Assembly: GCF_010501095.1 (NCBI RefSeq)
Contig: NZ_QVMP01000018.1
Location: forward strand, 3,562 to 67,561
Direction: 5' to 3'
DNA from: Dysgonomonas sp. 520
GTDB taxonomy: Bacteria > Bacteroidota > Bacteroidia > Bacteroidales > Dysgonomonadaceae
Length of the DNA: 64,000 nucleotides
The notes under the pieces were generated by a model. That model ran no database searches, was not told where the DNA came from, and saw only the letters and a program-made list of their open reading frames with translations. Position numbers and translations under genes: made by a program. Position 1 is the first letter of the stretch. Each line of letters begins with the position of its first letter. Shown here one piece after another: positions 3,234-38,839 of this stretch.

Positions 3234-4133
3234 ATGTGGTTAGCTCTGGCCTTTCTATCGGCTTTTTTTCTAGGGTGTTACGATGTCAACAAAAAGATGT
3301 CGGTTCAGAATAATGCGGTTATTCCCGTCTTATTCCTGAACACTTTTTTCTGTACATTATTCTTTCTTCCACTATTCCTGTTATCCCGCTTTGTGCCCGA
3401 TCTGGTTGCCGGGAGCATTTTCTACGTGCCCGCAATAGATGCCGAAACCCACTTCTACATTGTCCTGAAGTCGGCCTTGGTACTATCGTCCTGGATATTC
3501 AGCTATTTTGCCATAAAACACCTCCCCCTTACAATCAGCGGACCAATAAACGCCACACGCCCCGTAATGACGCTGCTGGGTGCGCTCCTCATATTCGGCG
3601 AAAGGCTGAACCTGTATCAGTGGATAGGTGTCTTACTGACTATTATATCGGTCTTTCTTCTTTCGGCGACAGGTAGAAAAGAGGGGATTAACTTCCGTCG
3701 CAACAAATGGATCATCTTCATGTTTCTGGCAGCGGCTCTTGGTGCTGCAAGCGGATTGTACGACAAATTCCTGATGCAAAGATTCAGTTCCACGTCTGTT
3801 CAGTTTTGGTACAATTTCTATCAATTCTTGATGATGGCCATAGTCCTGATTGTATTATGGTATCCACGACGGGGAAAGTCCACCCCTTTCAAGTGGAAAT
3901 GGAACATTCTGCTGGTTTCCTTTTTCCTTACACTTGCCGACTTTGTCTATTTCTATGCCCTGACCGATCCTGAGGCCATGATTTCGATCGTTTCTATGGT
4001 AAGAAGGAGCTCTGTTGTAGTCTCGTTTATCGGAGGAGTTTTATTCTTCCATGAAAAAAACTTAAAAGGAAAGGCAATAGACCTTGCTTTAATCATTATA
4101 GGGATGTTTTTCTTATATTTGGGAACAAAATAG
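3234..4133 (+). CDS. EamA/DMT-family membrane transporter
   Basis: The 299-residue protein has ten hydrophobic segments arranged as two five-helix halves, the drug/metabolite transporter (EamA) layout. The first half ends with the typical ISGPINATRPVMTLLGALLIFGERL segment family signature (conserved Pro plus GE near residues 95-123), and the second half repeats it with VVSFIGGVLFFHEK near residue 265. Members export amino acids, metabolites or drugs; the substrate here cannot be told. It begins 16 bases after nhaA and ends 39 bases before the DUF3256 gene. Confidence 0.85.
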   Translation: MWLALAFLSAFFLGCYDVNKKMSVQNNAVIPVLFLNTFFCTLFFLPLFLLSRFVPDLVAGSIFYVPAIDAETHFYIVLKSALVLSSWIFSYFAIKHLPLTISGPINATRPVMTLLGALLIFGERLNLYQWIGVLLTIISVFLLSATGRKEGINFRRNKWIIFMFLAAALGAASGLYDKFLMQRFSSTSVQFWYNFYQFLMMAIVLIVLWYPRRGKSTPFKWKWNILLVSFFLTLADFVYFYALTDPEAMISIVSMVRRSSVVVSFIGGVLFFHEKNLKGKAIDLALIIIGMFFLYLGTK

Positions 4134-36884: not shown

Positions 36885-37616
36885 CTATATCCCCAGAAAA
36901 ATGACTTCTACCGCATTTCTACCAGCTGTGCTACTGGTAATAAGAAGAGGTGCTCCGATTTGGGCGACAACTCTGAAGGATATAACATCTCCTGCATTCA
37001 GAGATACTACCGTAGAATAGTGTGTGTTTAGAACAGAACCTTGAGTAACGTAACTGTATGTCTCATCATTCGAAAGAGGAGAGCCATTTCTGTAAATCCA
37101 GAAATAAAAAGATTTCATTCCTGCAGCAGATGTTGATGGAACATGCAAAAAGGAGTGAAAAAAAACGAGATATTTACCTGAATTAACAGCCGTATAAGTT
37201 CCTACGCCAGGCAATTCATTACTTACCCCAGTAGTAAGAGTTACTGTAGAAGCTGTAGAAGCTGCTAATTTTCGATATAAGGAGCTTTGATTACCAACGT
37301 TTTGCTGCCAGCTGGCATTCCCATCATTGTCTGAAATCAAAACTCTGCCCGCCAACTGTGATCCGTCCTGTAATCTGAAACCTTTGTTAATAGTTCCGGA
37401 ACGGATATCTACTTTAGTCTGCGGCGCATTCGTCCCAACTCCGACTCTGCCTTGCGCATCCACCACCACATCGTCTGCGATGTTTGTGTTACTACTCGTG
37501 TTACGTGCCGCATCGATGTGAAATACTCCCTGTGGCGATTCCGTGTTCACTCCCACCTGTGCTTTGAGTGCCGTAACGGCTAAAAAAATCAATAAAACTA
37601 AACTGCTCTTTTTCAT
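36885..37616 (-). CDS. Secreted protein, possible C1q/TNF-like C-terminal domain
   Basis: A 243-residue protein with a signal peptide (cleavage after ALKA-Q). The N-terminal VGVNTESPQGVFHIDAARNT and VVVDAQGRVGVGTNAPQTKVDI segments are the GVGT-type repeats of Bacteroidetes surface and tail-fibre-like proteins. The C-terminal third (from about residue 120, VTLTTGVSNELPGVGTYTAVNSGKYLV onward) is all-beta and looks like a C1q/TNF-type trimerising head, which I state as inference. The gene is divergent from an AraC-type regulator, with one arm of a 25-bp inverted repeat 55 bases upstream of its start. Surface adhesin-like function is plausible. Confidence 0.65.
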   Translation of the reverse strand: MKKSSLVLLIFLAVTALKAQVGVNTESPQGVFHIDAARNTSSNTNIADDVVVDAQGRVGVGTNAPQTKVDIRSGTINKGFRLQDGSQLAGRVLISDNDGNASWQQNVGNQSSLYRKLAASTASTVTLTTGVSNELPGVGTYTAVNSGKYLVFFHSFLHVPSTSAAGMKSFYFWIYRNGSPLSNDETYSYVTQGSVLNTHYSTVVSLNAGDVISFRVVAQIGAPLLITSSTAGRNAVEVIFLGI

Positions 37617-37930
37617 AAGTTTCTAATGTTGTTTGTTGTGTTAAATATCTCTGTTTTAACCCTTTGCATATCTGTCACTGGGTAAGTGACGGAGGAGTGA
37701 TTTTGGATATGTTATTCTGTTTGTAATCAATTAGTTAAGAAAGGGTGAAATTGAAAAAGATAAACATTGATAAAACATGGTCGAAAAGGAGAAGTAAGTC
37801 GGGCTACTTATTTCATTCTAAGTTTTTAGAAGACAGTCACTTTCTGGTTCAGACGAAAAATGTATACGAAAAATAATTATTAGACATTGGTTAAACACGC
37901 ACAGCAACAAATACTTAAACAACAGAAAAT
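37617..37930. other. Divergent intergenic region of secreted protein and AraC regulator
   Basis: 314 bases without a gene. It holds the left arm of the 25-bp inverted repeat (37671-37695) and is otherwise AT-rich. I could not find a convincing TAnnTTTG element for either gene. Confidence 0.6.
37671..37695. repeat. 25-bp inverted repeat, left arm (with internal dyad)
   Basis: Perfect inverted match to 38719-38743 over 25 bases. Each arm is itself a dyad: GTCACT-GGGTA-AGTGAC, extending to nine-base half-sites with one mismatch (TCTGTCACT / AGTGACGGA). It lies 55-79 bases upstream of the secreted-protein start. It could be a recombination site or an operator. Confidence 0.85.
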
Positions 37931-38839
37931 ATGGAATATGAAGAAAAAGGAATTCTGTTCGTTGATCTTCAAAAAGGTCAGGAATGGAAAACAAACAGGA
38001 GAAATTGCAGCGTTATTCTCATTAGTAAAGGTCGATTGAATATTTCTTCTTTATCGCATAAAGATGAAAGGATTTCGGCAGGAAAGATATTCATGATCCC
38101 TACCGGCTACGAAACAGTCGTAAAGGCAATGGAGGAATCTGCTCTGATATCCATTGATATAAGTGAGGAAATCAATCAGTTGACATACTTTCAATCGGAC
38201 AAAACAGATGAAAATGATAACAATCAAAACCTCTATTTGACTTTCAACGAGATTGTCTCCGCATACATCGAATCGTTACAGGTCTACAAGGGTAGTAGTT
38301 TAGATTACAACTCCTTAGCAAGAATAAAAGCAAAGGAATTGATATACATACTGAAGGCGTCTTACACACAGAAAGAGCTCAGCCGTTTTTTCAGCAGCTA
38401 TATCACAAACGATTTATACTTCTCGGAACAGGTGAAATTGTTATCTCAAGATATTAAAAATATCCGCCAACTGGCTGAAATTATGAATTATAGCTATTCA
38501 GGGTTCAACAAGCGGTTCAGGCGATCGTTCGGCGTATCGGCTTACTCATGGCTCAGAAAGCGTCGGGCAAATATGGTGTATCACGATATTTATTACACGA
38601 ACAAAAGTTTGAAGCAAATATCGACAGAAAACATGTTCAGCACGCTTTCTCACTTCAACGAATTTTGTCACAAAAATCTGGGAAATTCTCCTTCCGAAAT
38701 CAGAAGAAAAAAAAGACCCCTCCGTCACTTACCCAGTGACAGAAGGCTATTATTTAGTTGTTTACCAAAGTACAAAGATAGGCAAATTATTATGAGATAT
38801 GCAATAGAACATAGATACTTTTTTCGAGAGAGAGCTTGA
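37931..38839 (+). CDS. AraC-family transcriptional regulator
   Basis: A 302-residue regulator. Residues about 1-100 look like a cupin-type sensing domain (SVILISKGRLNISSL ... ISAGKIFMIPTGYE), and residues about 170-262 form the AraC double helix-turn-helix (IRQLAEIMNYSYSGFNKRFRRSFG, then LKQISTENMFSTLSHFNEFCHKNLGNSPSEIR). The AraC domain ends at about residue 262; the remaining 40 residues are basic and unlike the family. The right arm of the 25-bp inverted repeat (38719-38743) lies exactly in this tail, so the C-terminus would change if the segment inverted (a stop would follow after the residues YAKG). The gene is divergent from a secreted-protein gene, its likely target. Confidence 0.85.
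   Translation: MEYEEKGILFVDLQKGQEWKTNRRNCSVILISKGRLNISSLSHKDERISAGKIFMIPTGYETVVKAMEESALISIDISEEINQLTYFQSDKTDENDNNQNLYLTFNEIVSAYIESLQVYKGSSLDYNSLARIKAKELIYILKASYTQKELSRFFSSYITNDLYFSEQVKLLSQDIKNIRQLAEIMNYSYSGFNKRFRRSFGVSAYSWLRKRRANMVYHDIYYTNKSLKQISTENMFSTLSHFNEFCHKNLGNSPSEIRRKKRPLRHLPSDRRLLFSCLPKYKDRQIIMRYAIEHRYFFRERA
38719..38743. repeat. 25-bp inverted repeat, right arm
   Basis: Exact inverted copy of 37671-37695, located inside the 3' end of the AraC regulator gene just after the codons for the HTH domain. The two arms bound a 1,023-base segment (37696-38718). Confidence 0.85.

Follow-up and report, generated by a model that had tools for sequence, protein, structure and literature searches.

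We consider it very likely that the 25-bp inverted repeats framing an AraC-family regulator gene in the Dysgonomonas sp. 520 window (the whole stretch of 64,000 nucleotides analyzed, C9:3562-67561) delimit an invertible regulator cassette, of which this genome has about 40 copies. In what we regard as the best explanation of the data as a whole, the assembled state of the cassette would be OFF, inversion would turn it ON, and a tyrosine recombinase encoded on a different contig (C6) would act on it in trans. The segment carries two inverted recombination sites with an identical crossover region, as an inverton does, and homologous loci occur in both orientations; from these comparisons across loci and genomes we infer that flipping also takes place in sp. 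520 itself.

A perfect inverted repeat frames an AraC-family regulator gene

The first-pass annotation of the window had described perfect 25-bp inverted repeats on either side of an AraC regulator, and the two arms (left arm, TCTGTCACTGGGTAAGTGACGGAGG) are indeed exact reverse complements of each other with 1,023 bases between them, the similarity extending to 34 nt at 91%. Each arm also contains the dyad GTCACT-GGGTA-AGTGAC, as had been noted (Table 1). The left arm lies ~55 bases ahead of the start of a divergent secreted-protein gene, in agreement with the distance given earlier, and the right arm falls within the AraC-like ORF beyond its helix-turn-helix (HTH) region, a placement that we could confirm because the HTH_18 match spans residues 181-259 (E=2e-15, 57.2 bits vs. 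a cut-off of 33.6) and thus establishes a C-terminal AraC-type HTH. When the inverted sequence was read by eye, the AraC frame would end in YAKG-stop just beyond the other site, the same tail that had been predicted. Finally, the window was said to lack a recombinase gene, and all 28 PF00589 and 11 PF00239 hits in the genome do lie outside it.

Table 1. Features of the cassette and its surroundings, in window coordinates.
Feature	Position	Strand	Remarks
Left 25-bp arm	37671-37695	+	Core site GTCACT-GGGTA-AGTGAC at 37674-37690; member of a genome-wide family
Right 25-bp arm	38719-38743	-	Core site at 38724-38740; spacer the same as on the left, in inverted orientation
Putative invertible segment	37691-38723		Between the two core sites; both orientations seen among homologous loci
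AraC-family regulator ORF	37931-38839	+	302 aa as assembled; HTH_18 match; frame passes through the right site
Secreted-protein gene	36885-37616	-	Adhesin-like by the profile of its paralogues, weakly so on its own sequence
TTAAACA repeats	37885-37925	+	GTTAAACA at 37890 and ACTTAAAC at 37913; just ahead of the AraC start; may be bound by the regulator
TAnnTTTG (-7 type) promoter motif	38773-38780	-	40 bp outside the right core site, facing the segment; -7 element only assessed
Predicted intrinsic terminator	38700-38746	-	Spans the right site; would act on transcripts from the outside TAnnTTTG promoter

The repeat belongs to a genome-wide family of cassettes with pair-specific spacers

The annotation had also called for a genome search for further copies of the repeat. 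GTCACTN5AGTGAC (17 bp) occurs in 75 exact copies in the sp. 520 genome (3.91 Mb, 68 contigs) compared to none for a reversed-pattern control, so the repeat in the window is not a product of chance. The dyad was present in 12 of the 120 genomes searched, sp. 520 included; inverted pairs beyond sp. 520 were found in four Dysgonomonas genomes (G019, G038, G042, and G063), all of genus g7, and the other genomes carried single copies.

A search of the sp. 520 genome with the window AraC protein returned 47 matches, fragments and weak ones counted. We aligned 37 complete cassettes, each with two inverted sites ~1.05-1.17 kb apart and an AraC gene between them, leaving out two degenerate loci (L111 and L114), a disrupted one (L115), two at contig ends (L017 and L028), a fragment (L044), and an AraC-less pair at L031; the loci examined in this genome cover 73 of the 75 exact sites. 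Both arms were exact in 34 of the 37 cassettes, while L026, L034, and L042 carried a one-base change in one or both sites.

The 5-bp spacer in the middle of the dyad was the same within a pair in 36 of 37 cassettes when compared in inverted orientation and in 0 of 37 when compared directly, and 16 distinct spacers were observed across the set. With a chance of a match of 9% per pair from pooled frequencies, the binomial probability is ~1.5e-36 if loci are treated as independent, although the loci of a single genome, over which this and the following counts are taken, are not independent, and the shuffles used throughout are mononucleotide shuffles. Matched but pair-specific spacers are a requirement of strand exchange by tyrosine recombinases.

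The exception was the first of two cassettes that lie in one stretch of contig C22 (L025:2352-3452). Its spacers differ (TGTAG vs. TGGTA), so it should be unable to invert, and its 60-bp right flank is identical to that of the second cassette. Based on the mismatch and the shared flank, this first cassette is probably fixed in the OFF state, possibly as a result of gene conversion.

In 35 of the 37 cassettes, a divergent secreted-protein gene adjoins the AraC 5' end; its start is 14-165 bp away from the site, apart from L010 (322 bp) and L022 (622 bp). At L033 this gene instead lies at the AraC 3' end, and no such gene was found at L034 in the ~400 bp before the contig end. Judged by their starts, the genes past the other (AraC 3') site vary between loci. 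The disrupted locus (L115:3426-5567, C67) is a decayed AraC locus in which a transposase-like ORF, recognized by eye, and runs of N accompany AraC fragments. At L031:3698-4108 (C54), a 411-bp site pair (sites at 3698 and 4092) has no AraC gene inside; by eye, a promoter motif and a hairpin with a T-run precede it, and a 695-aa secreted-protein gene and then an AraC gene follow downstream.

A conserved promoter motif outside the segment faces a predicted terminator

TAnnTTTG is given as the Bacteroides -7 consensus in work on B. fragilis (PMC4747536). This motif was found 38-40 bp outside the AraC 3' site, facing the segment, at 35 of 37 loci (shuffle mean 0.1, maximum 2), with L011 and L033 missing it by a single base, and outside the opposite site at none of the 37. 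When the inside and outside of 36 cassettes were compared, the motif was present outside the right site in 35, inside the leader in 2 and 1 (two strands), and near the 3' end of the segment in 0, the shuffle means for these three inside regions being 4.2, 7.7, and 4.8. The cassette is therefore not an invertible promoter of the Bacteroides type, since its promoter motif lies outside the inverted segment.

A hairpin followed by a T-rich tract was predicted at the promoter-side site in 31 of 37 cassettes as assembled (median stem extension 9 bp, -22.5 kcal/mol), whereas the simulated inverted junction qualified as a terminator in only 7 of 37 (median 3 bp, -12.4 kcal/mol). The window is among these 7: its predicted hairpin as assembled has a 6-bp stem extension, up to 8 T in 9 positions, and -18.7 kcal/mol, and its simulated inverted junction is weaker yet just over the threshold (5 bp, 5 T, -15.4 kcal/mol). 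In the simulated ON state, the stretch leading from AraC into the secreted gene scored as a terminator in 2 of 37 cassettes, and the same promoter-side hairpin read on the opposite strand passed in 15 of 37. Six of the 37 failed the threshold as assembled; one of them, L033, was scored on the wrong side and, when flipped in silico, shows a perfect hairpin and T-run. The terminator is not general outside this genome, as the predictions for 20 AraC loci of relatives were mostly weak and had no consistent OFF/ON difference.

Since the single conserved promoter motif is external to the segment and faces the AraC 3' end across a predicted terminator, the window as assembled is most likely OFF. The position of the motif outside the right arm implies that inversion should join promoter, regulator, and adhesin-like secreted gene in that order, an ON/OFF assignment that we infer from motif positions. 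The first-pass annotation had proposed that inversion would strip the promoter region from the secreted gene, a polarity that is probably the reverse of the actual one.

The converse arrangement, in which the assembled state is ON, with the AraC and adhesin genes transcribed divergently from an AraC-dependent promoter within the 240-bp leader and turned off by inversion, has in its favor the conserved TTAAACA boxes that the leader carries between the two divergent genes and the finding that 36 of 37 cassettes share the assembled orientation. It nevertheless seems unlikely to us, because the one conserved TAnnTTTG stands outside the other end and faces inward at 35 of 37 loci, the motif is scarcer inside the segment than in shuffles, and a promoter that soon meets a terminator would be of use only once inversion had released it; moreover, two locked-looking loci, L111 and L114, keep their AraC and secreted genes co-directional. 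The predominance of one orientation also weighs against the switch that we favor, in that flipping may be rare or many loci may be locked.

Homologous loci occur in both orientations

Using the recombinase gene that adjoins the cassettes of relatives as a reference, we found the AraC gene to run against it (OFF) at 18 of 20 loci and along it (ON) at two, namely L139 in Parabacteroides sp. PH5-46 and L157 in Dysgonomonas sp. 521; L201 (G025) is a third ON-oriented locus. The promoter motif was present within 110 bp on the recombinase side at 16 of these 20 AraC loci and on the other side at 2.

When L157 was aligned with L127, also from Dysgonomonas sp. 521, the recombinase gene (70%) and the downstream secreted genes (75%) were collinear in plus/plus orientation, while the segment between them aligned in minus orientation over 1,050 bp at 69%. 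These two loci are paralogues rather than alleles, and one end of the inverted alignment coincides with the sites while the other stops 250-280 bp inside. L157 and L129 of Dysgonomonas sp. PF1-14 gave the same pattern (943 bp, 69%, minus). No orthologous locus was found in both orientations among those compared, L201 and L116-L118 sharing only part of their recombinase DNA (L196 and L198 repeat L116 and L118). Within the sp. 520 genome, the left site of L111 and L114 is degenerate or absent and the AraC gene runs in the same direction as the secreted genes, the arrangement that a switch frozen ON should show. Thus, both orientations exist at homologous loci, the loci compared being paralogues or from other species.

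A tyrosine recombinase family is associated with the sites

Six cassettes fetched from other Dysgonomonas genomes adjoin a gene for a 410-449 aa tyrosine recombinase, which lies on the promoter-motif side where the motif was found. Both family members whose domains were scanned contain PF13102 and PF00589, and the sp. 520 member also contains PF17293. From a scan of named genomes we took the best 80 of 144 relatives of this recombinase and dropped 5 with less than 400 bp after the match. Among the 75 retained from these best 80, a near-exact inverted dyad pair began 24-309 bp after the recombinase gene in 41, and the pair was of the motif type in 40 (the pair at L171 is of another type, and L158 has another repeat besides its motif pair), compared to 0 of 75 for shuffled sequences and 0 of 61 for upstream controls; a motif-type pair was absent under the criteria used from the other 35 of the 75. 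Some recombinase-adjacent pairs frame an AraC gene, and others enclose 142-744 bp (between site starts) without an AraC hit. The arms differ among recombinase loci (GTCACT, GACACT, GTCGCT, ATCACT, ATCTCT, and others) yet remain nearly symmetric and paired, which indicates that the motif is tied to the recombinase more than to AraC. Members of the family at L200, L203, and L204 frame segments of 174-504 bp with GGCACT or ATCTCT/ATCTCC-type sites, and these segments are probably other invertible elements.

Among the 28 integrase hits in the sp. 520 genome, one clear member of the family was identified, a 423-aa protein encoded at C6:55264-56535. It is 44-54% identical to 11 site-adjacent enzymes of relatives, compared to 35% or less for the other integrases of this genome, and scores E=7e-212 against the family profile vs. 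7e-63 for the next integrase. Its gene has no intact pair as a neighbor, the degenerate L111 cassette being ~6 kb away. The recombinase family is thus adjacent to the sites in relatives and its clear sp. 520 member is unlinked, and the search for a linked invertase that the annotation had proposed bore fruit in the relatives but not in sp. 520, whose family member is on another contig. We take the C6 protein to be the best candidate enzyme, presumably acting in trans on all cassettes, so that one distant recombinase probably serves the switch copies of this genome. Such trans action has a precedent since B. fragilis Tsr19 is described as acting on a distant region (PMC4747536). Taken together, the pair-matched spacers, the homologous loci in both orientations, and the associated recombinase family give good support to the invertible switch that had initially been raised as a possibility.

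Three related 195-aa tyrosine recombinases are also encoded in the genome (L047, L051, and L054; contigs C5, C22, and C68), with close homologues in several relatives. We rejected them as the invertase since their distribution does not follow that of the sites: a site pair is present in G038 but the hits there are weak, while G018, G037, G006, and G013 have close homologues but no exact site.

The regulators share a DNA-binding part and a second conserved repeat

The HTH parts of the 37 AraC proteins have a mean pairwise identity of 69% compared to 36% for their N-terminal parts, which suggests a shared DNA target combined with different inputs. TTAAACA occurs 87 times in the sense strand of the 37 leaders (shuffle mean 3.6) and 4 times in the opposite strand, and forms direct repeats ~23 bp apart directly upstream of the AraC start in the window and in other cassettes. 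This repeat is a better operator candidate than the GTCACT dyad, and its boxes may mediate autoregulation.

These observations bear on the other reading offered in the first-pass annotation, that of static operators, in which an AraC-like protein would bind GTCACT-N5-AGTGAC and the pair would form a repression loop with nothing being inverted. Although a single operator is conceivable given the conserved HTH, and each site is a dyad, we consider this reading very improbable and find it unsupported as the main one. Operators have no need of a matched spacer, yet the inverted match holds in 36 of 37 pairs; similar dyad pairs adjoin the recombinase at loci without an AraC hit, with arms that vary but stay nearly symmetric; loci in the opposite orientation exist; and it is a different conserved repeat, TTAAACA, that stands at the AraC start.

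The secreted proteins resemble a Bdellovibrio adhesive trimer

We gathered 42 secreted-protein ORFs (195-396 aa) by motif at the loci. By BLASTP, 34 of the 42 match the window secreted protein (itself counted), 27 of these across residues 1-100, and their C-termini differ; the remaining 8 (at L007, L008, L018, L024, L025, and L027) gave no hit and have only the general form of the start in common. A profile built from 35 of the proteins matched Bdellovibrio Bd2133 (PDB 8ond, E=1.3e-10) and 8on4 (E=2e-4), while the window protein alone had its best match to 8on4 at E=0.012. Pfam searches of the 35 proteins found Peptidase_S74 in 1 and a weak BclA_C in 1. The profile match thus points to homology with the fibre of a mosaic adhesive trimer (MAT), which the secreted proteins appear to resemble. 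The neighbor of the L102 cassette in Dysgonomonas hofstadii is Mfa-fimbrillin-like.

Cassettes and adhesin genes seem to combine freely

The L032 locus (L032:2199-3322, C54) has an adhesin flank of the window group, 93-97% identical over the 250 bp up to the site, next to a cassette unrelated to that group (65%, near the all-pairs background). Its spacer, GGGTA, is the same as in the window, L012, and L014, but not L019 and L020. Among the 33 cassette pairs that are at least 80% identical, the left flanks (250 bp) are 82-98% identical in 16, 71% or less in 16, and 79% in 1. Given L032 and the 16 similar pairs with left flanks at 71% or less, cassettes and adhesin genes seem to have been combined freely, perhaps through the recombinase, through homologous recombination, or through fast divergence of the adhesin genes.

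Dozens of dispersed copies beside different genes, no transposase inside, and the 16 of 33 pairs that look as if the segment had moved without its neighbor gene might also suggest a non-autonomous transposable element with terminal inverted repeats, but such a mobile insertion cassette is highly unlikely, because in another 16 of the 33 pairs the homology extends beyond the left repeat and enters the secreted-protein gene, and on the right takes in the promoter region, the spacers are pair-specific, and the linked gene in relatives encodes a tyrosine recombinase.

A model for the switch

In the model that we favor, an invertible AraC cassette served in trans, the two inverted GTCACT-N5-AGTGAC sites would be the recombination sites of a tyrosine recombinase, with the N5 spacer, which is the same within a pair and different between pairs, having to match for recombination. 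The 423-aa C6 enzyme would act on them in trans while the promoter stays fixed outside the right site. In the OFF state, as assembled, a transcript would meet the hairpin and T-run at the right site and then the antisense strand of AraC. Once inverted, the cassette would have a weaker terminator or none at all, and the promoter would drive the AraC gene with the adhesin-like gene a short distance behind it, so that regulator and adhesin would be co-transcribed.

Comparison with known switches

Among the invertases described for B. fragilis, Mpi acts on 13 regions (PMC4747536), Tsr0667 on three gene clusters and nine further regions (PMC4747536, PMC12632263), and Tsr19/BF2766 on a local promoter directly downstream of its own gene and on a distant promoter (PMC4747536). 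What these systems would have in common with the cassettes is a recombinase-driven inversion in Bacteroidales that governs surface molecules, one enzyme acting at distant loci, and TAnnTTTG. They differ in that promoters are reported to invert in B. fragilis, whereas here the promoter motif is outside and the regulator gene would invert, at ~40 loci of one type.

The RecV-dependent cwpV switch of C. difficile has its promoter outside a 195-bp segment lacking an ORF, with a terminator proposed across the repeat in the OFF state; its recombinase is not beside the switch, its output is a surface protein, and about 5% of cells are ON (PMC2784873). An outside promoter, a predicted OFF terminator across the repeat, an unlinked recombinase, and a surface-protein output would be shared with the cassettes, the promoter-plus-terminator arrangement being a prediction here (31 of 37 OFF vs. 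7 of 37 simulated ON junctions, with the window among the 7). However, cwpV is described as one locus, in an unrelated organism and with no ORF inside, while here a whole AraC gene would flip and an AraC ORF is present in 37 of 37 cassettes. The 411-bp AraC-less pair at L031 is closer to cwpV than the AraC cassettes are and looks like a cwpV-like terminator switch. The short recombinase-adjacent segments of other Bacteroidales (142-744 bp) share with the cassettes the recombinase family and the dyad pairs after its gene but have no AraC hit inside.

Bd2133 is a Bdellovibrio mosaic adhesive trimer, a group in which a similar fibre carries exchanged tips (PMC10769870). The secreted proteins are like these MATs in their profile match to Bd2133, in a common N-terminal region (27 of 42 ORFs) with differing C-termini, and in Peptidase_S74 in 1 of 35; unlike them, they are short (195-396 aa), come from Bacteroidota, and lie beside a regulator that is very probably invertible.

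No description of invertible AraC gene cassettes or of phase-variable inversion in Dysgonomonas was found in the open-access literature searched. Each of the elements is known; what we rate as new is a regulator gene as the invertible unit, present ~40-fold and together with a secreted-protein repertoire.

Implications for surface variation

An extension of the model to combinatorial display is possible but doubtful: a single trans-acting recombinase would flip ~40 regulator-adhesin units independently, units that are ON would retune others via TTAAACA, since the regulators share a conserved DNA-binding domain and have divergent sensor halves, and recombination would swap regulators among adhesins, as at L032, thereby shuffling both the ON/OFF pattern and its wiring. 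Because the regulator gene is itself the inverted unit, each flip would switch a local transcription program and an adhesin together. If the switch works as proposed, the number of phase-variable loci under a single enzyme would exceed that described for the master invertases of B. fragilis (13 regions for Mpi, PMC4747536), and the pair-specific spacers would be an address code for a single recombinase. Secreted proteins related to the prey-recognition fibres of predatory bacteria would then be under random switching.
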